A DNA stretch of 34,702 nt from Flavobacteriales bacterium TMED96 (lineage in GTDB: Bacteria; Bacteroidota; Bacteroidia; Flavobacteriales; Flavobacteriaceae). Positions within the stretch are counted from its first letter, which is position 1. Each line of letters opens with the position of its first letter. Shown one piece after another: positions 6,196 through 31,914 of the stretch. The position numbers and the translations under genes were made by a program. The notes under the pieces were generated by a model. That model searched no databases and was not told where the DNA came from. It saw only the letters and a program-made list of their open reading frames with translations. Location of the stretch: the NCBI GenBank assembly GCA_002171475.2, contig NHEX02000023.1, positions 1-34,702 of the forward strand, given 5' to 3'.

Positions 6196-7714
<1,519 letters not shown>

Positions 7715-14320: not shown

Positions 14321-14698
14321 TGAAAAGAATAAAATCAAATTTATATAAATCGGAAATAGATGACCTAATTTTAGATAAAAAAAAATAATGATATGGGGTG
14401 GATAAAACATAAGAATAGCGAATTTTTGTTTCTATTTTCAAAAACTCAAGCAGGAGAAATTCACTCAAGGGTTGCGGCTATAAAATCGATAGATACATTT
14501 AAGAAAAAAAATATAGTGAAACAGATGAAAAAAATGAGTGATATTTCTATTAGGAATTGCACAAAAATTATTGAAGAACGAGGATTTGAGAAACATATAG
14601 AACCAATTTCATTTTGGAGGCAGTCTATATCTACATTTAAAAATTTTAATAAAAAGCATAAACTAACAAATAACTATTTACAAGTGTATAAAATTTGA
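14320..14698 (+). pseudogene. Small frameshifted fragment, possibly a relic of a class III aminotransferase C-terminal half
   Basis: FSKTQAGEIHSRVAAIKSIDTFKKKNIVKQMKKMSDISIRNCTKIIEERGFEKHIEPISF resembles the class III TFxGExxSxAAAIATIxxxEKxNV region; reading frame interrupted at A9 (14377-14385). Confidence 0.45.
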
Positions 14699-14700
14699 AT

Positions 14701-16008
14701 ATGAGACAAGGACAAAATTTATATAAAAAAGCAAAAAAAATAATTCCTGGAGGGACTATGCTTCTTTCAAAGAGGCCTGAAATGTTTTTGCCTGAAAATT
14801 GGCCATCATACTATTCCAAGGCAAAAGGTTGTAAAGTATGGGACTTGGATGGAAAAGAGTATACTGATATGTGTATAATGGGTATTGGGACTAACACTCT
14901 TGGGTATGGACATGAAAAAGTTGATAAAGCTGTTTTGAAAACTGTGACAAACGGGAATATGAGTACTTTAAACTGCTCTGAAGAAGTTTATTTAGCTGAG
15001 AAATTGGTTGAATTAAACCCTTGGGCAGATATGGTCCGTTTTGCAAGATCTGGTGGTGAAGCAAATGCAATTGCAATAAGAATTGCTAGAGCCGCTTCAG
15101 GAAAAGATAATATTGCAATATGTGGTTATCATGGTTGGCATGATTGGTATTTATCGGCAAATCATACAAAAAATGATATTTTGTCAGAGCATTTATTGGA
15201 AGGATTAAATCCGCTAGGTGTACCAAAGAACTTAAAAAATTCAGTTTTCCCATTTCATTACAATAACTATGATGAACTTTTATCTATAGTTGAAGAAAAT
15301 GATATTGGAGTAATTAAGATGGAGGTTGTAAGAAATTTTGGACCAGAGAATGATTTTTTACAAAAAGTACGTACCCTAGCTAAAAAAAAAAACATAGTAT
15401 TAATTTTTGATGAGTGTTCGTCAGGATTCAGAGTCACTTTTGGAGGTGCGTACAAAAAATATCAGGTTGAGCCTGATATGGCAATGTTTGGAAAAACTTT
15501 AGGGAATGGATATGCAATTACTGCTGTTGTTGGGAAAAAAGAAGTGATGGAATCAGCACAAAAAACATTTATTAGCAGCACTTTTTGGACTGAAAGAATA
15601 GGCCCATCTGCTGCTTTGGCTTCGTTAGAAGTAATGGAAAAGATAAAGTCGTGGGAGATAATTACTAAAATTGGCTTGAAAATCCAAAAAGGATGGGCTG
15701 CTTTGGCAAAATCAAATAACTTGGATATAAAAGTTAATGGTTTACCTCCTATTACCAATTATACTTTTAACTATTCTAATGCTTTAGAGTATAAAACTTT
15801 CGTCACCCAAGAAATGCTCAAAAAAGGCTTTCTGGCAAGCACAAATTTTTATGCATGTATAGATCATACAGACGAGCTAATAAATCTATACTTTGAGTGT
15901 CTAGATGAAGTGTTTAAGACTATCAGTAAGTGTGAGTCAAAAAAATTAAATATTATGAAATTATTGGATGGTCCGGTTTGTCACTCTGGATTTCAAAGAT
16001 TAAATTAA
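14701..16008 (+). CDS. Class III PLP aminotransferase (glutamate-1-semialdehyde aminomutase-like)
   Basis: KKIIPGGTMLLSKRPEMFLP, VWDLDGKEYTDMCIMGIGTNTLGYGH, FARSGGEANAIAIRIARA, YHGWHDWY, IFDECSSGFR, MFGKTLGNGYAI; ATG 14701 preferred over upstream TTG. Confidence 0.92.
   Translation: MRQGQNLYKKAKKIIPGGTMLLSKRPEMFLPENWPSYYSKAKGCKVWDLDGKEYTDMCIMGIGTNTLGYGHEKVDKAVLKTVTNGNMSTLNCSEEVYLAEKLVELNPWADMVRFARSGGEANAIAIRIARAASGKDNIAICGYHGWHDWYLSANHTKNDILSEHLLEGLNPLGVPKNLKNSVFPFHYNNYDELLSIVEENDIGVIKMEVVRNFGPENDFLQKVRTLAKKKNIVLIFDECSSGFRVTFGGAYKKYQVEPDMAMFGKTLGNGYAITAVVGKKEVMESAQKTFISSTFWTERIGPSAALASLEVMEKIKSWEIITKIGLKIQKGWAALAKSNNLDIKVNGLPPITNYTFNYSNALEYKTFVTQEMLKKGFLASTNFYACIDHTDELINLYFECLDEVFKTISKCESKKLNIMKLLDGPVCHSGFQRLN
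15382..15392 (+). repeat. A11 mononucleotide tract inside the class III aminotransferase
   Basis: GCT-AAAAAAAAAAA-C in frame (AKKKN). Confidence 0.95.
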
Positions 16009-16011
16009 CAA

Positions 16012-16210
16012 ATGAGACTAGCTTTAATCCCGTTAAGATTTGTGAATAACATATTAAAGAATAAAAATTTATTTGATTTTTACGAAAAACCAACGATATG
16101 TTACGCATTAAATGCAGCAAAAAAATATTTCTTATTTGATAATATTTGTATTACAATAGTTTGAAAAAAATTAAAAAAGCACTTTTCAAAGTTGGAGAAT
16201 ACCTTTTGAA
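16012..16210 (+). pseudogene. Decayed N-terminal relic of a CMP-nonulosonate cytidylyltransferase
   Basis: MRLALIPLRFVNNILKNKNLFDFYEKPTICYALNAAKKYFLFDNICITIV* lines up residue-for-residue with IALIPARGGSKRIPxKNIKxFxGKPxIxYxIxAxxxSKLFDxIxVSTDD; the RGGSKRI catalytic loop is lost. Confidence 0.75.
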
Positions 16211-16250
16211 GGGAACGCAGTAAAATCTATTTTTTGTAAATTTAATTAAT

Positions 16251-16380
16251 ATGAAAACATTAATAATTGGTGAAGCAGGAACAAATTATAATCAGGGTTT
16301 AATAAAAGCGAAAAGTGTGCTAAATGTTGCTGTTAGAGCAGGATGCTATCCGTAAATTCAAACCTACAAGGATGTACCTT
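16251..16380 (+). pseudogene. Decayed N-terminal relic of a NeuB-family synthase
   Basis: MKTLIIGEAGTNYNQGLIKAKSVLNVAVRAGCYP*IQTYKD matches the NeuB N-terminus pattern xxxIIAEAGxNHNGxLxxAKxLIDxAxxAGADxVKFQTYK with an internal stop. Confidence 0.75.
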
Positions 16381-16430
16381 TAAACCTTTTAGATTAATGA
16401 CTTATGGTGTTATTTTTTAAATAATTAAAT

Positions 16431-17483
16431 ATGAATTTTAAAATTGGGAATAAGATTATTGGAATAGATAGGCCAACATTTATTATTGCAGAAATGTCTG
16501 CAAATCACGGTGGAGATTTAAATAATGCTGTAGAGATTATTAAAGCGGCTTCCAAGGCAGGTGTAGACGCAATCAAATTACAAACATATACAGCTGATAC
16601 TATTACCATAAATTCAAATAAAAAAGATTTTTTAATTGATGAAAGTTCCCCTTGGGTTAATCAAAAAACATTATGGAACTTATATGACAAAGCACACACT
16701 CCTTGGGAATGGCACCCAACTTTATTTGATGAGGCAAGAAAACATGATTTAGAAATTTTTTCAACACCTTTTGATCAAACAGCTGTTAATTTTCTCGAAA
16801 AATTGGGGTGCCCAGCTTATAAAATAGCCTCACCTGAAATTACAAATATTCCATTATTGAAAAGAGTGGGCATTACCGGGAAACCTGTAATTATATCGAC
16901 TGGCGTTGCAGATTACGATGACATAAAGTTAGCTGTTGACACATTGAGAAAAGTCGGTAACAACAAAATTGCAGTCTTAAAATGTACTTCATCATATCCT
17001 GCTCCAGTTTCTGAAGCCAACTTGTTGACAATCCCAAATTTAATTAAAGATTTCAATGTGGTATCAGGCATCTCAGATCACACATTAGCTTCAGTTTCAT
17101 CAATTGCATCTGTTTCTTTAGGTGGTAAAATTATTGAGAAGCACATAAAACTTAAAAAAAGTGCAGAAACTTTAGATTCTTTTTTTTCATTGGATGAAGA
17201 TAAATTTAAAATTCTAGTCCAAGATGTTAGAATTCTAGACAAAGCTCTTGGTAAAATAAGTTATAAAGTTACACCTAGCGCTAGGTCAAGTATGGCAAGT
17301 AAAAGCTCTATCTATGTTTTTAAAGACATAAAAAAAGGGGATGTTTTTTCAAAGGATAACATCAAAGTAGTTAGACCAGGATACAGCATTCATCCAAAAT
17401 TTTACGAAAGTTTTCTCGGTAAATCTTCCTGTAAAGATCTGTGCGTTGGAGATAGACTTTCTCTTGATTTTATAGATGAGTAA
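16431..17483 (+). CDS. pseI: Pseudaminic acid synthase
   Basis: FIIAEMSANHGGDLNNAVEIIKAASKAGVDAIKLQTYTADTIT, FSTPFDQTAVNFLEKLGCPAYKIASPE, ISTGVADYDDI, VSGISDHT, C-terminal SAF-like domain. Confidence 0.95.
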   Translation: MNFKIGNKIIGIDRPTFIIAEMSANHGGDLNNAVEIIKAASKAGVDAIKLQTYTADTITINSNKKDFLIDESSPWVNQKTLWNLYDKAHTPWEWHPTLFDEARKHDLEIFSTPFDQTAVNFLEKLGCPAYKIASPEITNIPLLKRVGITGKPVIISTGVADYDDIKLAVDTLRKVGNNKIAVLKCTSSYPAPVSEANLLTIPNLIKDFNVVSGISDHTLASVSSIASVSLGGKIIEKHIKLKKSAETLDSFFSLDEDKFKILVQDVRILDKALGKISYKVTPSARSSMASKSSIYVFKDIKKGDVFSKDNIKVVRPGYSIHPKFYESFLGKSSCKDLCVGDRLSLDFIDE

Positions 17484-18333
17484 AGTTTCAGTTCAAATAT
17501 ATTGTGATGGTGGAAAGGAAGTTGGATATGGTCATTTATTTAGATCAAGAGCACTAAATAATATTTTTCTATCTAATGGCATAACTTCAAGTTTATATGG
17601 CCTTACGAATGAAGTTAACGAATTGATTGGTAAAGAAAAATTTGATAATCAAAATGCAGATGTTATTGTATTAGATTCTCACAGAAATATTGAATCTAGA
17701 TTAGTCAATTTAAAAAAACAAAACAAAAAAATAATAACACTAGATTGGTTTGGAAATGAAAAGCCACACATAAATATAGTAATACATCCACATCAAAAAC
17801 CTAAAGCATTGACGAAGAGTTTTATTGGATACAAATATGTTATACTTAGAGATCAGATTTTGAATCAAAAAAAAATCAATAGAAAAAAAAATCAAGTCAT
17901 TATATGTATTGGGGGGGGGGACTTATTGGGCCAAAGCAATTTGGCTGCTGATTATTTAGCAAAAAAAGGGTTAAATGTTATTATTGTTTATGGGCCAAGT
18001 TCAAATAGATTCTTAAAATCAGAAAAACACAAAGTTTTATATAACCCATCCAATTTTACTAGTTTAATAGCAAGTTCATCTTTAGTTGTTACCAATGGGG
18101 GAGGGTGCATGTTTGAATCAATATACTTGAAAACCCCTACTCTTGTTTTACCACAAACCTTATTTGAAAAAAGAGTTGCTAGAATTGCAAAAAAAAACAA
18201 TGCAATATTAGGTTTAGGACTTAGTTATCTAAAGAATTTTAAAACAGAACTTAAGATGAACAATTTTAACTTCAAATTTATTGATGGTCGCGGGGGAATG
18301 AGAATAGTTGAAATTGTAAAAAAAATTTTGTGA
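17476..18333 (+). CDS. pseG: UDP-2,4-diacetamido-2,4,6-trideoxy-beta-L-altropyranose hydrolase (PseG-like)
   Basis: IYCDGGKEVGYGHLFRSRAL (GxGHxxR), ICIGGGDLLG, VVTNGGGCMFESIYLKTPTLVLP; adjacent to pseI. Confidence 0.88.
   Translation: MSKVSVQIYCDGGKEVGYGHLFRSRALNNIFLSNGITSSLYGLTNEVNELIGKEKFDNQNADVIVLDSHRNIESRLVNLKKQNKKIITLDWFGNEKPHINIVIHPHQKPKALTKSFIGYKYVILRDQILNQKKINRKKNQVIICIGGGDLLGQSNLAADYLAKKGLNVIIVYGPSSNRFLKSEKHKVLYNPSNFTSLIASSSLVVTNGGGCMFESIYLKTPTLVLPQTLFEKRVARIAKKNNAILGLGLSYLKNFKTELKMNNFNFKFIDGRGGMRIVEIVKKIL
17911..17920 (+). repeat. G10 mononucleotide tract inside pseG
   Basis: TATT-GGGGGGGGGG-ACTT, in frame, encoding the GGG of IGGGD. Confidence 0.97.
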
Positions 18334-18334
18334 A

Positions 18335-19540
18335 ATGGATAAATGGTTAATTTCTGTAACTGCAGGACTTATTCAGAGACATGGTATAAGAAAAGCAAAA
18401 AAACTAGGCTACAAAGTCTTAGCAATAGATCAAGACCCTAGAGCGATAGGATTTAAATTTTCAGATATCAAAATTGTTTCAAGGTTGGATGAATTCAATG
18501 AAATTATAAAAAAAATAAGAAATTTAAATTTAAATATTGTTGGAGCTGTCAGTTTTTGCTCAGAAGCTGGGTTGAAATTATGTGCTAGAATTCGTAAAGA
18601 ATTCAATTTGCCAGGTGAAAGAGAGAATGTGTATATGAATTTCATTAGTAAGGCTAATCAAAGAAAAATATTGACAGAAAATTCATTCAAACATCCTGAA
18701 AAGTGGGAAGTGTTTGAAAATCAAGAAAGCCTTGAGAAGGCCATGGATGAATTTAAATTTCCAATAATAATTAAACCAACTGAATCATCAGGTAGTAGAG
18801 GAGTTTCAAAGGTATTTAGCCTGAATGACAAAAATTTTAAATACGCTATAGAAAATGCATTCAATTTTGCCCAAAACAATGAAGTAATTGTTGAAACCTA
18901 TATGAATGGATACGAATGTACAGTCGAATCATTTACCGTTAAAGGAGAGACCCACATTTTGGCAGTTACTGAGAAAAAAAAAGTTGAGAATTCTAATGGT
19001 TTAATAGCTAGTGAATTGGGCACTTTCAATCGGGATATAAAAACTTACAATAAAATATGCCAGCTAATCAAAAAAGCTATTCGAGTTTTAAACTACAACA
19101 ATGGGCCGTGTCATTCTGAAGTTATAGTTATGAAGGATGGAAATATTGGTATTGTAGAGATTGGCGCTAGAGGAGGAGGTTTTCTTGTTTTTAACAAGTT
19201 TGTTCCTTTAGTTAGTGGAATTGATATTACAAAATTAACCATTCAACAATCCACAGGAGGTGTTTTTACGTTAGGTAAAATAAAAAATATTGTAGGAATT
19301 TTAAAGTTTATTTTACCGAAAAAAGGAAAAATTAAATCAATTAAAGGGTTTGATAACTTAAATAAAGTTTGTGGGCTTGAAGGTGAAACTTTTGTAAAAG
19401 AAAATGAAGTTGTTAGTTCTGTAAGCTCAGATGGTGATAGGCTAGGTTATATTATAGCAATAGGGAAAACATACAATGAGGCTAAAAATCTCATTGAAAC
19501 TAATCAATCTTTAGTTAAATTTGATTATTATGATTATTGA
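18335..19540 (+). CDS. ATP-grasp family ligase
   Basis: FPIIIKPTESSGSRGVSKV, VIVETYMNGYECTVESFTVKGE, VEIGARGGGFLVF. Confidence 0.9.
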   Translation: MDKWLISVTAGLIQRHGIRKAKKLGYKVLAIDQDPRAIGFKFSDIKIVSRLDEFNEIIKKIRNLNLNIVGAVSFCSEAGLKLCARIRKEFNLPGERENVYMNFISKANQRKILTENSFKHPEKWEVFENQESLEKAMDEFKFPIIIKPTESSGSRGVSKVFSLNDKNFKYAIENAFNFAQNNEVIVETYMNGYECTVESFTVKGETHILAVTEKKKVENSNGLIASELGTFNRDIKTYNKICQLIKKAIRVLNYNNGPCHSEVIVMKDGNIGIVEIGARGGGFLVFNKFVPLVSGIDITKLTIQQSTGGVFTLGKIKNIVGILKFILPKKGKIKSIKGFDNLNKVCGLEGETFVKENEVVSSVSSDGDRLGYIIAIGKTYNEAKNLIETNQSLVKFDYYDY

Positions 19541-20294
19541 TTCTCATATACATTTAGATGAAAATTTTGACGGCACTTGTATAGGTGCATTCAATGAAAT
19601 AGAGAGACAATTTAATGAAAGCCATATCGAAAAAGGCGTTGTTTTACATTTAGAGAGTCAACCCTGGTCTATGGAAGAATTTTCAAATTGTTTACTAAAA
19701 TTCCCAAGATTTATAGGGTTTGTTAACACTGACCCATTAAAAAAAGACTCTATCAAAACGTTTCAACACGGAATAAAAAATTTGGGCTTCTCAGGGTTAA
19801 AACTACACCCAAGATTGCAGGTATTTAGTCTTACAGAACCACTGGTTGAGAGTTTATGCTTGGCAGCAGGAGAATTAGATGTCCCTGTTCTGATTGATGC
19901 CTTTCCAGATGGATCACACTTAATGCAAGGCTTCTCACCTATCAATTATTCCAAATTAGCGTCTGTGTGTCCCAACACAAAATTTATTTGGGCGCATATG
20001 GGAGGACACTATGTCCTAGACTTTATGATGTTAGCAAAAAGGTTGAAAAATGTGTATATGGATATATCATATAGTTTTCTATATTATCAATGTGATTCCG
20101 TTATTGACAATATAATTTATTGTATGCGGTCGATGAATTTTGATAAAATATTTTATGGCTCGGATTATCCAGATAGATCAATAAAAACTTCTTTAGATAT
20201 GTCAATGAAAATCCTTAAAAAAAAGGGCTTAACAGATATCCAACTGAAGAAAATTTTATTTGAAAATGCTAATAGTTTTTTTAAATGGGGATAA
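19521..20294 (+). CDS. Amidohydrolase family (amidohydrolase-2/TIM-barrel metal-dependent hydrolase)
   Basis: IIDSHIHLDE, LGFSGLKLHPRLQVF, FIWAHMGGHYVLDFM, IFYGSDYPDRS. Confidence 0.85.
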   Translation: MIIMIIDSHIHLDENFDGTCIGAFNEIERQFNESHIEKGVVLHLESQPWSMEEFSNCLLKFPRFIGFVNTDPLKKDSIKTFQHGIKNLGFSGLKLHPRLQVFSLTEPLVESLCLAAGELDVPVLIDAFPDGSHLMQGFSPINYSKLASVCPNTKFIWAHMGGHYVLDFMMLAKRLKNVYMDISYSFLYYQCDSVIDNIIYCMRSMNFDKIFYGSDYPDRSIKTSLDMSMKILKKKGLTDIQLKKILFENANSFFKWG

Positions 20295-20886
20295 TGGAAT
20301 ATAATAAAACAGCTGAAATGTATAATAACAGGTTTGATCTTTTTGGGAATGACATAAAAACAGTTGGCTGGGGAAGTAGAGAGGATCAGTCCTTAAGATT
20401 CGAAGTACTATTCAGAGATATAAATCCATATGGTAAAAAAATACTTGACATAGGTTGCGGGCTGGGAGATTTAATAAGTTTTTTGGATAAAAAAACAGAT
20501 AAAAACTTTGATTATATTGGGATTGACATAGCTGAAAAATTAATAATTGAGGCCAAAAAAAAATACAATTCTCATAATAGAAACTTTTTTGTTACTGACA
20601 TTTTTTCATTTGATGGAAATTTTGATATAATTATTTGTTCCGGCGCACTATCCCATAAGTCAAAAGGTATATTAAATTACGCATATCGATCCTTGGAAAG
20701 GATGTATAATATGGCTAATGAAATAGTATCAGTAAATTTTTTAAGTAAATATGTTGATTTTGAATCAAAAAAAACCAACATTATTATCCTGAAAAAGTTT
20801 ATAAAATTTCAAAAACTTTTTGTGACAAAATTAATTTAATCGATGATTATCCGCTTTATGAATTTACCTTACAATTAAAAAAATAA
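20285..20886 (+). CDS. SAM-dependent methyltransferase; C-terminus out of frame after an A8 tract
   Basis: ILDIGCGLGDLISFLDKK, YIGIDIAEKLIIEAKKK, FDIIICSGALSHK. After A8 (20767-20774) the expected tail HYYPEKVYKISKTFCDKINLIDDYPLYEFTLQLKK* lies in the -1 frame. Confidence 0.85.
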
Positions 20887-20889
20887 ATT

Positions 20890-21600
20890 ATGAATTACAA
20901 AGATAAAATTATTGAGTTTTGCAAGAAAAATAGAGTCTCAACTACTGAGGTTGCCGACGCCTTAGGAAAATCAGGTGTCCTTGAAGGACTTAAACCCATT
21001 AACGAAAATTTTTATAAAGTTGGAAAAGTAAGAACTATTTTTACAGCAAATAATTCTAACTTTTCTGTGCATGAACAAATTATCGATGTAGATGATGGAG
21101 ATGTCGTAATTATTTTTGCTCACAATTGTAATGAGAGGGCAATTATTGGTGACCTTATAGCTAAATTTTTAACTTTATATAAAGGGGCTTCGGCTTTAGT
21201 AGTAGTTGGGAACGTCCGAGATGTTTCAGCTCTGAAAAGAGAAAAATTCCCCATTTGGTCTACAGGTTTTAGCCCTCTTGGATGTTACAATACGCCAGCG
21301 GAGGGATTTCCCAAAAAATTAGAATTCGAATTAAGAGAAAAATATAGTGATGGTGTCGCGGTTTGTGATGACGGAGGAGTAGCTGTAATTTCAAAAAAGT
21401 TACTAAATAAAAATGTCTTGGAAAGACTTCATAGAATCGAAATGCAAGAAGATATTTGGTTTTATTGTTTAGACACTCTTAAATGGGATACAAAAAAAAT
21501 TGTTTGTGACAAAGAGTATTTAAATGATCACAAGCCTTTTTCAGCTATTCAAATAGAAAAAATAAAAGACATTCAAGAACCGCTTGATGAAAAGGATTAA
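20890..21600 (+). CDS. RraA-like family protein (aldolase/lyase-type RraA fold)
   Basis: VSTTEVADALGKSGVL, NERAIIGDLIAKFLTLYKGASALVVVGNVRDVSALKREKFPIWSTGFSPLGC, VAVCDDGGVAVI. Confidence 0.85.
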   Translation: MNYKDKIIEFCKKNRVSTTEVADALGKSGVLEGLKPINENFYKVGKVRTIFTANNSNFSVHEQIIDVDDGDVVIIFAHNCNERAIIGDLIAKFLTLYKGASALVVVGNVRDVSALKREKFPIWSTGFSPLGCYNTPAEGFPKKLEFELREKYSDGVAVCDDGGVAVISKKLLNKNVLERLHRIEMQEDIWFYCLDTLKWDTKKIVCDKEYLNDHKPFSAIQIEKIKDIQEPLDEKD

Positions 21601-21618
21601 TATTTTAAAATTTTGATT

Positions 21619-22473
21619 ATGGAAAATAAAATTAACTCTAGATTAATTACAAAAATGGAACAAATACAAGTTTTAAAGGAACTTGACATATATGGATTTA
21701 GTAAAGTTGATAACTTTTTAACCACAGTTTCTATTGAAAACTTTTTGGATTTAATTAATTCAAAATACGATGAAATAAATAAAACCCAGAAAGTAAGTTA
21801 TCCTGGGGTTCCAACAAGGAATACTAACGACAAAATCATTTATAATTTACAAAACATTGACATTTCCTTTATTGATGTTTTAACGTCACCGACCATTGTT
21901 TCAATTGCATCAAATAAACTAAACGATCCCTTTTACAGGTTTCTTCCACCTGATAAACCAAATTATGTTTTACAATACTATAACGCAAGATCAAGTGGAC
22001 AAAAACTTGATTTACACATTGATTCCCACATTCCATTTTCAGGCAGTTTTACAAATATGATGCAGTTTGTTATCTTGTTAGAAGATAGTACTATCGATAA
22101 TGGCTGTACTACCGTAGTACCTGGATCTCATCAGTCCGCAAAGTTCACAGATAGGGAACTTAAAAATTTAAAGCCTTTGGAGGGAAAAGCAGGGGATTTA
22201 ATTTTATGGGATAGTAGACTTTGGCATGGAACAAATGAGAATATAACTGGGGATTCAAGATGGGCTCTAATCGCTACTTTATCCATGTGGTGGATTAAAC
22301 CGTCTATGGACATAGTGCGAGGAATGAGTGAGGATATTTACGATAAATGTAGTGATCACCAAAAACAATTTCTAGGTTTTTGTAGTATACCACCCATAAA
22401 TCCAATGGATAGGAATAACACAAAAACCGGATACGATTTCCTAAAAAAGAAATTTAAGGACTATAATTTTTAG
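21619..22473 (+). CDS. Phytanoyl-CoA dioxygenase (PhyH)-like Fe(II)/2OG oxygenase
   Basis: LDLHIDSHIPFSGSFTNMMQFVILLEDSTIDNGCTTVVPGSHQS...LILWDSRLWHGTNENITGDSRWALI: HxD...H and Arg motifs; ATG 21619. Confidence 0.88.
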   Translation: MENKINSRLITKMEQIQVLKELDIYGFSKVDNFLTTVSIENFLDLINSKYDEINKTQKVSYPGVPTRNTNDKIIYNLQNIDISFIDVLTSPTIVSIASNKLNDPFYRFLPPDKPNYVLQYYNARSSGQKLDLHIDSHIPFSGSFTNMMQFVILLEDSTIDNGCTTVVPGSHQSAKFTDRELKNLKPLEGKAGDLILWDSRLWHGTNENITGDSRWALIATLSMWWIKPSMDIVRGMSEDIYDKCSDHQKQFLGFCSIPPINPMDRNNTKTGYDFLKKKFKDYNF

Positions 22474-25921: not shown

Positions 25922-26806
25922 ATGGAACAAAAAATTGTAAAGGTTGGGTATGGTAATGTAAATAAAATAGAAATTGGAGGTACTAGGCCTCTAGTTTTTG
26001 TTGGAGGGCCTTGTGCTATTGAGAGTAGAGAACACGCATTGATCATGGCTGAGTCAATTTCGGAGATATGTAGCAAATTAGATATCCCTTGGATTTATAA
26101 ATCTTGTTATGACAAGGATTGCCGTTCTTCACCTAAAAGTTTTCATGGGGTCGGCCTTGATAAAGGCTTGAAAATCTTGTCTGAAATTAGAGATACTTTC
26201 AAAGTTCCGGTAGTCTCAGATTTCTCTGACCCTTCTTGGGCGGAGGCAACTGGTGATATTTGTGATATGGTACAAGTCCCTGCATATCTTTGTCGTCAGA
26301 CTTCTATTCTGAGAGCTGCTGCTAAAACTGGTCGACCAATCCTATTGAAAAAGGGGCAATTTATGAGTCCCTGGAATATGAAAAATTCATGTAGGAAATT
26401 AGAGGCATTTGGGAGTAACGAAATTATACTTGCAGACCGTGGTACCTTTATGGGATACAATATGTTAGTTAATGATATGACTTGTTTTCCCATCATGAGC
26501 TACACTGGCTATCCTGTTTGTTATGATGCTACTCATTCAGTTCAACTTCCAACTTCAATGGGAAATATTTCAGGTGGGCAACGTGAATTTATTCCTTATT
26601 TGGTTAGGGCTGCAGTTGCAAACGGGATAAATATCCTTTTCATGGAGACTCATAATAATCCGGCGGAGGCTTTATCTGATGCGAATACTGTACTTGATAT
26701 AAAGTATCTCGAGAATATACTTTTTCAGGCAAAAAAAATCCATGAATTAAGATTAGAATTACTCAGTAGATTAGGGCCTGATAATGTTCATCCAGTAAAC
26801 GAATAG
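25922..26806 (+). CDS. kdsA: 3-deoxy-D-manno-octulosonate 8-phosphate synthase-like (divergent KdsA)
   Basis: FVGGPCAIESREHAL, IYKSCYDKDCRSSPKSFHGVGLDKGLKIL, MVQVPAYLCRQT, LKKGQFMSPWNMKN, YDATHSVQLP, FMETHNNPAEALSDANTVL. Confidence 0.88.
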   Translation: MEQKIVKVGYGNVNKIEIGGTRPLVFVGGPCAIESREHALIMAESISEICSKLDIPWIYKSCYDKDCRSSPKSFHGVGLDKGLKILSEIRDTFKVPVVSDFSDPSWAEATGDICDMVQVPAYLCRQTSILRAAAKTGRPILLKKGQFMSPWNMKNSCRKLEAFGSNEIILADRGTFMGYNMLVNDMTCFPIMSYTGYPVCYDATHSVQLPTSMGNISGGQREFIPYLVRAAVANGINILFMETHNNPAEALSDANTVLDIKYLENILFQAKKIHELRLELLSRLGPDNVHPVNE

Positions 26807-26808
26807 TT

Positions 26809-27204
26809 ATGAAAGTAAAAGAAGTGATGATGAAAATCGGAGAATTTCCATCAATTGAAAAAAAAACAATTTTAAAAGAAGCATTGATCGAAATGGGAAA
26901 AGCAAATTTGGGATTGGTTTGTATAGTTAATCAAGAAAAAAACCTGTTGGGTCTAATGACAGATGGTGATTTGAGAAGAAAATTATTAAAATATCAAAAA
27001 CCAATCTCATCTTTTTTTATTGATGATGCTTTAAATCACGCTAAACTAAATCCAATTACTTGTAATCCTGCTGATGACCTTAAAAAAGCTGTAAAATTAA
27101 TGGGTGATAAGCAAATTTGGGATTTACCAGTAATAGATAATGAAAAGCGTTTAGTTGGCTTGTTACATTTACATCCTGCTATTAAAAAATTAATTGAAAA
27201 GTAA
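26809..27204 (+). CDS. Stand-alone CBS-domain pair resembling the C-terminal half of KdsD (no SIS domain)
   Basis: VKEVMMKIGEFPSI...LGLVCIVNQEKNLLGLMTDGDLRR...IWDLPVIDNEKRLVGLLHLHPAI. Confidence 0.85.
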   Translation: MKVKEVMMKIGEFPSIEKKTILKEALIEMGKANLGLVCIVNQEKNLLGLMTDGDLRRKLLKYQKPISSFFIDDALNHAKLNPITCNPADDLKKAVKLMGDKQIWDLPVIDNEKRLVGLLHLHPAIKKLIEK

Positions 27205-27259
27205 TTTATAAATTGAAAAAAATTATTGCATTTACTAATATTATAAATTCCAAACTCTT

Positions 27260-27292
27260 ATTTACATAAAAAGTATTTAATTTGATGTAAAT
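27260..27292. repeat. Inverted repeat ATTTACAT-N17-ATGTAAAT
   Basis: Perfect 8-bp arms (27260-27267 / 27285-27292) in the intergenic region before the aldolase. Confidence 0.6.
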
Positions 27293-27306
27293 AGAAACTT
27301 TAATAA

Positions 27307-28098
27307 ATGAAAGGTCAAATCGAAAGGCAGAAGAAATTAAAAGAGGCACTTCGAAATAGAAAAAAGCTTTTTGCCTCATGGATTTCTTATTCACATCCTT
27401 CTATCACCGAAACGTTTGCTAAAGCTGGGTTTGATTTTATCGCTATTGATATGGAGCATTCAACTATTAATCAATCAGAGGCCCAACGAATAATAGCTGC
27501 TTGTCAATTTGAAGGTGTACCTTGTTTACCGCGGCCGGTCTCCCACTCAAACGACACCATAAAACCTCTGTTGGAGTCTGGTGCAGATGGAATTTTAATT
27601 CAAATGGTCAATTCTGCCAAAGAAGTAAGTAAGTTAATTAGTGATATAAAATACCCACCTGTAGGAAAAAGAAGCTATGGTGTGAGTCGTGCACAGGGAT
27701 ACGGTTTTGATTTCAAAAATTATATAACTAACTGGAATAAAAGGTCAATATTTATGGTACAAATTGAATCATTAGAGGGAGTTAATAATATTGATGAAAT
27801 ATTGTCATTTGATCAAATAGATGGAGTTATGATTGGCCCTTATGACATTTCTGGATCATTAGGAGTGCCAGGTGAATTAAATCACCCAAAGGTCGTTGAA
27901 GCCTCAAAAAAAGTGATAAAAGCATGTGAAAAATTTGGTAAAAGTTGTGGGACACAGCTTAATAATCCAAACAAACAAAATATCGATGAACTCTTTGGTA
28001 TGGGCTATACTTATGCCATTTTAGGGTCTGATTTATTCGTATTATGGAAGTGGGCTGATAAAATGCAAAAAATTATTACTGATTTTCGTAAAAATTAA
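27307..28098 (+). CDS. HpcH/HpaI family aldolase (2-keto-3-deoxy acid aldolase-like)
   Basis: FASWISYSHPSITETFAKAGFDFIAIDMEHS, PRPVSHSNDTIKPLLESGADGILIQMVNSAKEV, YPPVGKRSYGVSRAQGYG, IDGVMIGPYDISGSLG. Confidence 0.9.
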   Translation: MKGQIERQKKLKEALRNRKKLFASWISYSHPSITETFAKAGFDFIAIDMEHSTINQSEAQRIIAACQFEGVPCLPRPVSHSNDTIKPLLESGADGILIQMVNSAKEVSKLISDIKYPPVGKRSYGVSRAQGYGFDFKNYITNWNKRSIFMVQIESLEGVNNIDEILSFDQIDGVMIGPYDISGSLGVPGELNHPKVVEASKKVIKACEKFGKSCGTQLNNPNKQNIDELFGMGYTYAILGSDLFVLWKWADKMQKIITDFRKN

Positions 28099-28101
28099 AA
28101 C

Positions 28102-28878
28102 ATGTATTTAGAAAAGCTTTTTAATTTAAAAGATAAAGTGGTTGCTGTTATAGGTGGAGGTGGATATTTATGCAGTGAAATGGCCAGTTCGTTTGCTCAT
28201 GCAGGGTGTTCTGTTGCCATAATTGATATTAGGTTAGAAAAGGCAAAAAAAATAGAAATAGGAATTAATAAGAAAGGATTTAAAAATACTTTATCACTTA
28301 GTTTGGATGTTGGAAAAAAAAATCAACATGAGAAAGTTTTAAATTCAATTTTAAATAAGTTTGGATGTCTTGACGTCGTAATTAATGGTGCTGGGATAAA
28401 TGGTTCAACTTCTTTTTTAGATATAACAGAAAATGAATGGAATGAAATAATGGATTCTCAAATTAAAGGTACTTTTTTTGGATGCCAAGTTTATGGAGAA
28501 TATATGGTTTCTAAAGGTAGTGGGAATATAATAAATATTTCTTCTGCATCTGCTGGTCCACCCCTTTCAAAAGCTTTTACATATTCTGCAGCAAAAGCAG
28601 CGATCAAAAATTTGACACAAAATTTAGCAAGAGAATGGGCACCAAAAGGTGTTAGGGTGAATTCAATAAGGCCAGGGTTTTTCCCTACTGAATGGAATCT
28701 AAAGAACTTTATTGATGAAGACCGTAAATCTGCAATTTTGAATCATACTGCTATGCGAAGATTTGGGATACCAAGTGAATTAACTGGCGCAATTCTTTGG
28801 CTAGCTTCAGATTCAGCTAGTTTTGTAACAGGATCAGAAATTACTGTAGATGGTGGTTTTTCTTGTATGACGATATAA
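28102..28878 (+). CDS. Short-chain dehydrogenase/reductase (SDR) 1
   Basis: VIGGGGYLCSEMASSFAHAGCSV, NGAGINGS, YSAAKAA, ITVDGGFSC. Confidence 0.92.
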   Translation: MYLEKLFNLKDKVVAVIGGGGYLCSEMASSFAHAGCSVAIIDIRLEKAKKIEIGINKKGFKNTLSLSLDVGKKNQHEKVLNSILNKFGCLDVVINGAGINGSTSFLDITENEWNEIMDSQIKGTFFGCQVYGEYMVSKGSGNIINISSASAGPPLSKAFTYSAAKAAIKNLTQNLAREWAPKGVRVNSIRPGFFPTEWNLKNFIDEDRKSAILNHTAMRRFGIPSELTGAILWLASDSASFVTGSEITVDGGFSCMTI

Positions 28879-28883
28879 AATTT

Positions 28884-29636
28884 ATGAAAAATAAAAAAGT
28901 AGCTATTGTAACTGGCGGAAATCGAGGAATAGGCCTTGGAATAACCAAAACCTTTATAGAAGCAGGCTATTTAGTAATTGTTGGAGCAAGAAAAAGTTTA
29001 AATATTGAAAATCATGAAAATGAAGGGATTTTCTTTGTTTATACTGATGTTCGTAAAGAGAAATATCATCAAAATTTAGTTAAATACGCAATTGACAAAT
29101 TTGGAAGATTAGATGTATATGTCAATAATGCAGGGTTTTCTTTTTGGAAACCTATTTCTGAAATAGAAGAAATATTTTTAAGTGAGATTTTAGATACTAA
29201 TTTGAAGGGCGCTTTTTGGGGTTGTAAAGCGGCTTCTAAAGTTATGAAGTCCAAAGCAACAATAATTAATATTTCAAGCCTGGCAGGTAAAAGAGGTTCG
29301 TCTAACAACTCCGCATATGTTGCCTCCAAATTTGGAATGAATGGTCTGACACAATCTCTAGCTAAGGAACTTGGCCATAGAAATATTAGAGTAAATGCCG
29401 TTTGTCCAGTGCTAATTGCTACTGATGGACTAAATGAAGCCTTGAAAATGGATTACGCCCCTGGAGGAAAAAATCCAGAAAAGTTTATTAAAAATTTTAC
29501 CAAATCAAATTCAGCTCTTATGAGAATGCCTACTGCTTCTGAGGTAGGTGAAATGTGTGTTTTTTTAGCATCAGAGAGTGCCAGTGCTATTACGGGCCAA
29601 TGTATTAATGTCGATTGCGGAGTTTTACCTCAATAA
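28884..29636 (+). CDS. Short-chain dehydrogenase/reductase (SDR) 2
   Basis: VAIVTGGNRGIGLGI, NNAGFSF, YVASKFG, INVDCGVLP; ATG 28884 preferred to TTG 28863. Confidence 0.93.
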   Translation: MKNKKVAIVTGGNRGIGLGITKTFIEAGYLVIVGARKSLNIENHENEGIFFVYTDVRKEKYHQNLVKYAIDKFGRLDVYVNNAGFSFWKPISEIEEIFLSEILDTNLKGAFWGCKAASKVMKSKATIINISSLAGKRGSSNNSAYVASKFGMNGLTQSLAKELGHRNIRVNAVCPVLIATDGLNEALKMDYAPGGKNPEKFIKNFTKSNSALMRMPTASEVGEMCVFLASESASAITGQCINVDCGVLPQ

Positions 29637-29640
29637 CTAA

Positions 29641-30414
29641 ATGAAAAAAATAGTAGTAATTCCTGCAAGACTGAACTCTAAACGTTTCCCAAATAAAATT
29701 TTATTTGATTTGAAAGGCTTACCAATGATTGAGCACGTAAGAAGGCGAGCATTATTAGCTAAAAATGTTGAAAAGGTTTACATAGCGACTTGTGATACCG
29801 AGATAAGAGACGTTTTAGAAGGTTACGGCGCAGAGGTAATTATGACTAGTAAAAATCATAAAAATGGAACTACTAGGGTAGCAGAAGCTGTATCTAACAT
29901 AAATTGTTCAAATGTAATTTTAATCCAAGGCGATGAACCATTATTACTACCTAGACATTTAGATAAAATGTTAAATATTATTAGTCATGACAATAGTTCT
30001 TTTGCTTGGAATGCAACTGGACCTATAGAAACAGAAGAGGAATTCAATAGAAGTTCTGTTGTTAAAGCATCAATTTATGGAAATAAAATACTTTATTGCT
30101 TTAGGAAGAAAAACTTAATAAATGATTATACAAATCATTCACATAATTACAGAAAAATCTTGGGTCTTATAGCATATAAAAAAGATTTTTTAGTTAGACT
30201 TACCGAAATGAATTCAACACTTATTGAAGAGATGGAATCAATAGAACAAATGAGAATAATTGAAAATGGATATTCAATTTGTTCAGTACCCTTTGAATCT
30301 AGCCAACCTAGTGTTAATGAACCTTCAGAAGTTCAATTAGTATGGGATTATGTTGCAAATGACAATGAACAAAAAATCATATTGGAGAAAGTTTTTAATT
30401 TCAATTATAAATAG
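29641..30414 (+). CDS. kdsB: 3-deoxy-manno-octulosonate cytidylyltransferase-like (KdsB)
   Basis: VIPARLNSKRFPNKILFDLKGLPMIEHVRRRAL, YIATCDTEI, VIMTSKNHKNGTTRVAEA, LIQGDEPLL, HNYRKILGLIAYKKDFL. Confidence 0.92.
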   Translation: MKKIVVIPARLNSKRFPNKILFDLKGLPMIEHVRRRALLAKNVEKVYIATCDTEIRDVLEGYGAEVIMTSKNHKNGTTRVAEAVSNINCSNVILIQGDEPLLLPRHLDKMLNIISHDNSSFAWNATGPIETEEEFNRSSVVKASIYGNKILYCFRKKNLINDYTNHSHNYRKILGLIAYKKDFLVRLTEMNSTLIEEMESIEQMRIIENGYSICSVPFESSQPSVNEPSEVQLVWDYVANDNEQKIILEKVFNFNYK

Positions 30415-31914
30415 ATGAAATGTATCACGGAGACACAATATGATCAATTGTGTAAGACATGTGACAATATTATTAATAATAAACCTAGTTCATTTGCGAG
30501 AAATGCAAACTCTTTTTTACATGTAATTAGAGAGCATCCAATATTTTTAAATACATATAAACCAATTTTTTATAATAATTTTAGATTTTATTTCTTCATT
30601 CTCACTCAACTTTTTAAAAGTTTCATAGTAGGGTTTTTAAAGTTTTTCGATGCTATTTACAGAATTTATTTCTTAAAAGATATTATAAATAGTGACAAGA
30701 CGGACTACCAGAATATATTTATAACTCACTTTTTAAACGATAAATTCCTTAAACATAAAAATGATTTTTATTTTCATGAATTACCAAAAAAATTTATTAA
30801 TTCTCAAAAATCTAGTTTAAAGTTATATATAAATTTCACAAATTTAAGTTCGAGTGATGCCGAAAAAAAATGGCTCAACAATGAAGTAACTTCAATACTA
30901 ATACCAAAATACCTTTCTATTTATTTAGAATTGAAACTTAGGTTTCTAATGTTTAGAGAGGCCATATCAATTTTAAAAATTAAATCTTTCTCATCCTTTG
31001 ATATGAGAGTTAAAATTTATGCGGCTGTTGCATCATTATTTTCTAGTTCACACAACAATTATAGATTAGCTTTTATTGTTCGAAGTTTTGTCAAAAAAAA
31101 TACTAACGCCAGTATTTTCACAACATATGAGGGACATCCTTGGGAGAGATTAATATTTGGCATGGTCAGAAAAATTAATTCAAAAATTAATTGTATAGGC
31201 TACCAACATGCAATTATTTTCAGAAAACAACATTCAATTAGGAGAAAATTATCAAATATTTTTGAGCCCAATTATATTATGTGTTCTGGGGAACATGGTT
31301 TTAAGGAATTAAATAAGATTAATTATCTACCTCCTAGACGTTTATTTATATTTGGGAGTAATAGAAGAAACTATAAAAAATTGAGTAGTTTGGCAGTCCA
31401 ATCCAAAAAGAGGGACACTTTTTTGTTGCTTCCAGAAGGTGATTTAGTTGAGTGCATTCCAATGGCAAATTTCGCTCTTAATTTAGCCTTAAAATTTCCT
31501 AAATTTAAATTTATAATTAGATTTCATCCGGTAACGAAAGTAAAAAAAGTAATTAGAAAGTATCCTCAAATATTGCAAGAGTTACCTAATATTGAAATAT
31601 CAAACTCATCATTCGAGGAAGATTTATTAAGATCGCATTATGCCATATACCGGGGATCAACAACTATAATAAAAGCGGTCGAGTACGGATTGATTCCTCT
31701 TTATTATAAAAGACCAAATGAGATTTCAATCGATCCACTTTTTGAAATTCAAAGCCAAAAAATCAATATATCTAACCCAGAAGATATACAAATTTTAGAT
31801 AAAATTTCTGAGAAAGAACATGTTTACAATCAGTCAAAACTAATTGAGTATGTCCAACATTTTTTTAGTCCAATCAATTATGATGTGGTTTTAAAATTAA
31901 AAGATAATCAATGA
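30415..31914 (+). CDS. Putative GT-B-like surface-carbohydrate glycosyltransferase
   Basis: TTYEGHPWERLIFGMVRK, CIGYQHAIIFRKQHSI, ILLPEGD-like strand, FIIRFHPVT, AIYRGSTTIIKAVEYGLIPLYY; adjacent to kdsB-like. Confidence 0.6.
   Translation: MKCITETQYDQLCKTCDNIINNKPSSFARNANSFLHVIREHPIFLNTYKPIFYNNFRFYFFILTQLFKSFIVGFLKFFDAIYRIYFLKDIINSDKTDYQNIFITHFLNDKFLKHKNDFYFHELPKKFINSQKSSLKLYINFTNLSSSDAEKKWLNNEVTSILIPKYLSIYLELKLRFLMFREAISILKIKSFSSFDMRVKIYAAVASLFSSSHNNYRLAFIVRSFVKKNTNASIFTTYEGHPWERLIFGMVRKINSKINCIGYQHAIIFRKQHSIRRKLSNIFEPNYIMCSGEHGFKELNKINYLPPRRLFIFGSNRRNYKKLSSLAVQSKKRDTFLLLPEGDLVECIPMANFALNLALKFPKFKFIIRFHPVTKVKKVIRKYPQILQELPNIEISNSSFEEDLLRSHYAIYRGSTTIIKAVEYGLIPLYYKRPNEISIDPLFEIQSQKINISNPEDIQILDKISEKEHVYNQSKLIEYVQHFFSPINYDVVLKLKDNQ

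Follow-up and report, generated by a model that had tools for sequence, protein, structure and literature searches.

A horizontally spread KdsA/KdsB-like cassette that may make a CMP-activated 3-deoxy-2-ulosonic acid other than Kdo

The DNA analysed here (the window, that is, positions 1 to 34,702 of contig NHEX02000023.1 of Flavobacteriales bacterium TMED96) contains six genes related to those for 3-deoxy-D-manno-octulosonic acid (Kdo), and we consider it fairly probable that they belong to a pathway, spread horizontally, whose product is a CMP-activated 3-deoxy-2-ulosonic acid distinct from ordinary Kdo. All six open reading frames lie on one strand, tightly packed and nearly overlapping (Table 1), and Pfam and NCBIfam profiles bear out the families that an initial annotation, made from the letters of the window, had read in them: a divergent KdsA (KdsA*), a CBS pair, an HpcH/HpaI aldolase (HpcH), two short-chain dehydrogenases/reductases (SDR1 and SDR2) and a KdsB-like cytidylyltransferase (KdsB*). 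The CBS protein, described there as KdsD-like without the isomerase domain, aligns with the KpsF/KdsD profile in the C-terminal CBS region alone (positions 156–268 of 268; 68.2 bits against a cut-off of 203.7) and has no SIS isomerase domain of the KdsD/KpsF kind; it may act as a nucleotide-sugar sensor for feedback. The neighbour of kdsB* encodes a 499-amino-acid protein for which the AlphaFold2 (AF2) model (pLDDT 90) has GT-B enzymes as its Foldseek matches, making it a candidate transferase for the CMP-sugar.

Table 1. Genes of the cassette and its downstream neighbour, in window coordinates
Gene or product	Position	Strand	Assignment	Basis
kdsA*	25922..26806	+	KDO8P-synthase-like, putative PEP-dependent ulosonate-phosphate synthase; KDCRSS replacing KANRSS	TIGR01362, alignment, AF2, pocket residues
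Stand-alone CBS pair	26809..27204	+	KdsD C-terminal part without SIS isomerase domain	profiles, position after KdsA*
HpcH	27307..28098	+	HpcH/HpaI class II pyruvate aldolase	Pfam/NCBIfam, catalytic residues
SDR1	28102..28878	+	classical SDR, apparently NAD-type	Pfam/NCBIfam, Asp42
SDR2	28863..29636 (first ATG ~28884)	+	classical SDR, apparently NADP-type	Pfam/NCBIfam, Arg38
kdsB*	29641..30414	+	predicted type II CMP-ulosonate cytidylyltransferase; Ile173 replacing canonical Kdo-domain His	profiles, alignment
Glycosyltransferase	30415..31914	+	GT-B fold, directly after kdsB*	AF2, Foldseek

KdsA* can be aligned over its full length to solved Kdo 8-phosphate (KDO8P) synthases, scores 317.4 bits against TIGR01362 (cut-off 314) and is modelled by AF2 as a KDO8P-synthase barrel (Foldseek TM score 0.78–0.88 to KDO8P synthases). 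It keeps the ligands of phosphoenolpyruvate (PEP), of the metal (C31, H205, E242 and D253) and of the acceptor phosphate (R68, S69 and R125), with K60, K65, K143/K144, R173 and H205 among the residues retained. The pocket for D-arabinose 5-phosphate (A5P) is altered: as the initial annotation had pointed out, residues 60–79 read KSCYDKDCRSSPKSFHGVGL against KSSFDKANRSS in solved KDO8P synthases, so that KANRSS has become KDCRSS, and in addition S102 stands for the His of TDVHE and Y122 for the Phe of PAF. Residues 67 and 122 correspond to Asn57 and Phe112 of the Neisseria meningitidis enzyme, which point towards the A5P portion of the ligands bound there (PMC6650799). Given that the pocket has changed while the PEP, metal and acceptor-phosphate ligands have been kept, KdsA* would, judged by its residues, join PEP and a phosphorylated aldose without the standard A5P contacts.

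These substitutions define a clade. A scan of GTDB genomes with KdsA* returned at least 80 relatives, from which the locus counts below are drawn; 79 of the 80 listed are 56–86% identical to it across most of the protein. Carriers include Flavobacteriaceae and other Bacteroidota, Balneolota, Nitrospirota and Leptospiraceae, on the proteobacterial side SAR116, Pelagibacter, Rhodospirillales, Devosia, beta- and gammaproteobacteria and one deltaproteobacterium (Myxococcota in the taxonomy used), and also Prochlorococcus, Latescibacteria and Uhrbacteria. When 78 KdsA* proteins (the window's included) were set against 26 canonical KdsAs, 16 of which are second copies from KdsA* genomes, all 78 fell on one side of a branch with an SH-aLRT support of 99. 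All 78 have C62, D66, S102, Y122, N152, S156, F176 and T256, with C, S or G at residue 67, whereas the canonical proteins have S62, N67 and H102 (26/26) and A66 and F122 (25/26); separation is near-complete at all nine positions (62, 66, 67, 102, 122, 152, 156, 176 and 256). Mixed-phylum subclades, such as one with a support of 92 that unites Nitrospirota, Balneolota, Comamonadaceae, Oxalobacteraceae, Legionella and Rhodospirillales, point to horizontal spread. A single-protein scan of viral sequences found nothing; an alignment scan found about 78 IMG/VR viral contigs with a canonical-type KdsA (L148–L227; all less than 48% identical, [AG]-N-R kept), and the KDC motif occurs in none of these 78. 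Plasmid matches at 43–47% identity, where opened, proved to be canonical KANRSS proteins, mostly from capsule sets. Among the sequences encountered, a KdsA with KKDNRSS (L144, G406:C81:37700-39300; 37% identical to KdsA*), from a genome that also has KdsA*, is apparently a third acceptor-site subtype, and a 16-kb ‘Bacillus velezensis plasmid’ (NZ_CP061939.1, L007) with Rhodobacterales-like capsule genes looks like foreign sequence.

The gene order recurs within the clade. The CBS gene directly follows kdsA* in 64 loci, and in 30 loci from several phyla HpcH, SDR1, SDR2 and KdsB* come after KdsA* in that order, in some with inserts, such that chance is not an adequate explanation for the grouping; median gaps between adjacent cassette genes range from −27.5 (kdsA* to CBS) to +7 bases. 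HpcH is present in 42 loci overall, 28 have kdsA* and kdsB* (usually with the CBS gene) without it, and 10 could not be assigned for HpcH. Close to KdsA*, 18 loci have a KdsC-like HAD phosphatase, and in 23 of 63 loci a GT-B gene stands directly 3′ of kdsB*. The HpcH/SDR module is thus optional, and the core is kdsA*–CBS–kdsB*, often with kdsC. A search with HpcH for the trio without KdsA* (in Bacteroidota and one sample of Alphaproteobacteria) gave few matches. In the closest relatives an MBOAT acyltransferase gene and a second gene are inserted between the CBS and HpcH genes; elsewhere (L022, L023, L027, L028, L033, L035, L037, L039 and L076) a family of about 320 amino acids without a Pfam match, possibly another tailoring enzyme, stands after kdsA*/CBS and before HpcH, and two further families without a Pfam match (about 260–280 amino acids) lie directly upstream of kdsA* in about a dozen loci (L017:7271-8101, L029:246-1061 and relatives). 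Minimal cassettes of Rhodospirillales (L058, L065, L067, L068 and L070) adjoin kdsC and genes for radical SAM/SPASM, TPR and Rrf2-like regulator proteins in a similar arrangement.

The genome itself (1.94 Mb in 67 contigs) also encodes an ordinary Kdo set: a canonical kdsA on contig C33 (motif KANRT; 36% identical to KdsA*), a canonical kdsB on C14 (26–27% identity; His of IHVG kept), kdsC on C19 and two full kdsD genes on C53 and C57. Because this set lies elsewhere and the aldolase and SDR genes are syntenic in relatives, the cassette does not present the situation that the initial annotation had named as contrary to its reading, namely a sole kdsA and kdsB beside an aldolase and SDRs that lack synteny. 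The proposal of a second ulosonate pathway, beside those for Kdo and pseudaminic acid (Pse), is broadly supported by the separate canonical set, by the synteny and by the coupling of KdsB* to the module described below, with the refinements that the module is optional and the first acceptor probably not A5P. A second copy of the ordinary pathway, supplying Kdo for capsule or O-antigen as in kpsF–kdsB–kdsA sets on Rhodobacterales plasmids, would share with the cassette its kdsA and kdsB core within surface-glycan clusters, and fits a KdsA* above the TIGR01362 cut-off and a KdsB that retains the canonical His and Tyr in Rhodospirillales. However, the Rhodobacterales sets have a full KpsF and a KANRSS KdsA, whereas the KdsA* pocket is altered in 78/78 proteins, no KdsD was found in some KdsA* genomes and the sugar domain of type II KdsB* (below) has changed, and we regard such an extra copy as unlikely.

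Which aldose KdsA* uses can be approached through genomes that appear to lack KdsD. Among 30 KdsA* genomes, 17 also have another KdsA and 12 have an isomerase above the cut-off of the KpsF/KdsD profile; in 15 this profile gave CBS-type matches without any KdsD/KpsF isomerase, and a further KdsA was likewise not found in the same 15, their other PF00793 proteins being 3-deoxy-D-arabino-heptulosonate 7-phosphate (DAHP) synthases by length or motif. These fifteen comprise eight Prochlorococcus, four Bacteroidota, a Devosia, a Latescibacterium and an Uhrbacterium, and joint loss in all of them through incompleteness alone is unlikely. Together with the altered pocket, the lack of a KdsD in many of the KdsA* genomes suggests that A5P is probably not the acceptor. 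Our preferred guess is ribose 5-phosphate, since it differs only at the carbon beside the aldehyde and is present in every cell; KdsA* would then perhaps yield a 5-epi-Kdo. The acceptor-phosphate ligands R68, S69 and R125, the KDO8P-synthase fold and the TIGR01362 score would also suit an enzyme that retains A5P and differs just in C4 stereochemistry or in catalysis, with the novelty lying wholly in HpcH/SDR tailoring, yet the fifteen genomes in which no A5P isomerase was found make this quite improbable.

Within the module, HpcH scores 109 bits against PF03328 with its catalytic residues intact (H51, R76, E154 and D180); the solved proteins closest to it are aldolases of 2-keto-3-deoxy sugar acids, and it could act at the C3–C4 bond. 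SDR1 has Asp42 in 40/40 sequences (best NCBIfam model D-mannonate oxidoreductase, with KduD lower) and SDR2 has Arg38 in 34 of 35 and Lys in one, so that by these residues SDR1 looks NAD-type and SDR2 NADP-type. Such a pair suggests an oxidise-then-reduce inversion, as NAD-dependent oxidation followed by NADPH-dependent reduction would be redox-balanced.

The place of this module in the pathway should be visible in its partner enzymes, as a module that makes the acceptor predicts that KdsA* differs with its presence and a module that tailors the product predicts that KdsB* does. The window’s KdsB* scores below the equivalog cut-off of TIGR00466 (138.8 versus 155.2) and above that of the broader NF003952 (203.6 versus 193), and in its Kdo domain I173 and I177 replace the His and Tyr of KH[IV]GxY, the His of which, in canonical KdsB, we take to contact Kdo. 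Its CTP loop (R10, R15 and K19) and first metal-binding Asp (D98) are kept; the roles of these residues, and the binding of Kdo by the C-terminal domain, are known from KdsB (PMC3149649). When module-plus and module-minus sequences were compared over all usable loci, the total-variation distance rose above 0.6 in 34 KdsB* columns and in none of KdsA* (maximum 0.58). Twelve loci, all module-minus, carry a canonical-like KdsB* (type I; in Rhodospirillales with the canonical His and Tyr). In the remainder (type II), residue 173 is I or V in 36/36 module-plus loci and L, M or S in 15/15 module-minus loci, and residue 14 reaches a distance of 0.92 against a 95% best-column limit of 0.70 under label shuffles, which ignore relatedness; in the same loci KdsA* reaches 0.69 (limit 0.69) and the CBS protein 0.75 (limit 0.72), that is, marginally over. 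One locus left out of this test, as its module sits upstream of KdsA* (L026), has H10, V14 and I173 in KdsB*, as predicted. A minimum of 7 changes of the module label is needed on the KdsB* tree and of 12 on the KdsA* tree. Taken together, these patterns strongly suggest, without amounting to proof, that module and KdsB* are coupled, and as KdsB* differs with the module and KdsA* does not, HpcH, SDR1 and SDR2 most likely tailor the sugar between its synthesis and its CMP activation. That they instead produce the acceptor aldose for KdsA* is unlikely, for, although an unusual aldose is within reach of an aldolase and dehydrogenases and gene order alone does not fix the step, the same KdsA* occurs in 28 loci without the module and KdsB* columns follow its presence where KdsA* columns do not.

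From the observed gene content, synteny, clade-specific residues and KdsB*–module coupling, we infer the following reactions. KdsA* would join PEP and a phosphorylated aldose (probably not A5P) into an ulosonate phosphate, from which KdsC (housekeeping here, cassette-borne in others) would take off the phosphate. HpcH, SDR1 and SDR2 would then modify the free ulosonate; in the simplest case a ring carbon would be oxidised and reduced again, and HpcH would act at the C3–C4 aldol bond. KdsB*, which lacks the canonical sugar-domain His, would activate the resulting sugar with CTP, and the adjacent GT-B enzyme would pass it to a surface glycan. Several points weigh against this scheme. The KdsA* score is still just over the KDO8P-synthase equivalog cut-off, and its specificity is read from residues. 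Many of the genomes are metagenome-assembled or from single cells, such that absence of KdsD or of a canonical KdsA is never certain. Only two independent pairs lie on well-supported branches of the KdsB* tree (seven on all branches), for which reason the association at residue 173 cannot be strictly tested against relatedness. Devosia loci have HpcH without SDR2, and plain cleavage of the ulosonate by HpcH would make the cassette defeat its own purpose in part.

The product stands a fair chance of being an undescribed CMP-sugar. In a search of the open-access literature, with subscription papers outside its scope, neither the cassette nor any KDCRSS enzyme was found described; heptulosaric acid was considered as the product, and the papers on it concern plant pectin. 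More tentatively, we propose a widespread, mobile and as yet undescribed branch of ulosonic-acid synthesis in ocean bacteria, Prochlorococcus among them, and in a candidate-phylum bacterium, in which KdsA* would use an aldose phosphate other than A5P, optional HpcH/SDR modules would vary the product and dedicated KdsB* enzymes would activate the results with CMP. If so, abundant ocean bacteria would have a new CMP-activated acidic sugar in their surface chemistry, PEP-dependent ulosonate synthases would gain a new sequence-defined acceptor class, and ulosonate pathways would be modular (that is, one synthase, exchangeable tailoring and a matching cytidylyltransferase). As databases would label kdsA* and kdsB* as ordinary kdsA and kdsB, Kdo predictions from gene presence would then be wrong in many marine genomes.

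Two observations concern the rest of the window. The SAR116 alphaproteobacterium of L066 carries, immediately 5′ of the KdsA* cassette there (L066:441-7183), relatives of the genes at 14695-22473 of the window in the same order, with an aminotransferase, PseI, PseG, an ATP-grasp protein, an amidohydrolase, a methyltransferase and PhyH in common (29–57% identical); by this likeness a much larger cluster is shared across phyla. A PseB-like gene at 6668-7714 contains one in-frame stop (6857-6859) and is either disrupted or affected by an assembly error.

Among known systems, the canonical KdsD–KdsA–KdsC–KdsB pathway has the same families and logic (PEP condensation, dephosphorylation and CMP activation). 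The cassette differs in KDCRSS and the further pocket changes, in the missing isomerase domain and in the lost KdsB sugar-domain His; it adds HpcH and two SDRs, and coexists with the canonical set here. The capsule kpsF–kdsB–kdsA sets on plasmids of Thalassovita, Palleronia and Pseudosulfitobacter likewise place a second kdsA and kdsB in surface-glycan clusters, but with a full KpsF isomerase, a canonical KANRSS KdsA (44–47% identical) and no HpcH, SDR1 or SDR2. YfaU, GarL and HpaI share family and catalytic residues with HpcH and act on 2-keto-3-deoxy acids; the cassette protein is far under every equivalog cut-off (142 versus 368.8 bits for HpaI) and sits in a biosynthetic operon. Tailoring before activation, as proposed for the cassette, has a parallel in the pathway of Shewanella for 8-amino-3,8-dideoxy-D-manno-octulosonic acid (Kdo8N; KdnA, KdnB and a dedicated KdsB), in which a dehydrogenase tailors the free ulosonate before a specialised KdsB acts. 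The two enzymes there are an iron-type alcohol dehydrogenase (KdnA) and an aminotransferase (KdnB), whereas Pfam finds neither between the CBS gene and kdsB*, where just HpcH and the two SDRs stand.

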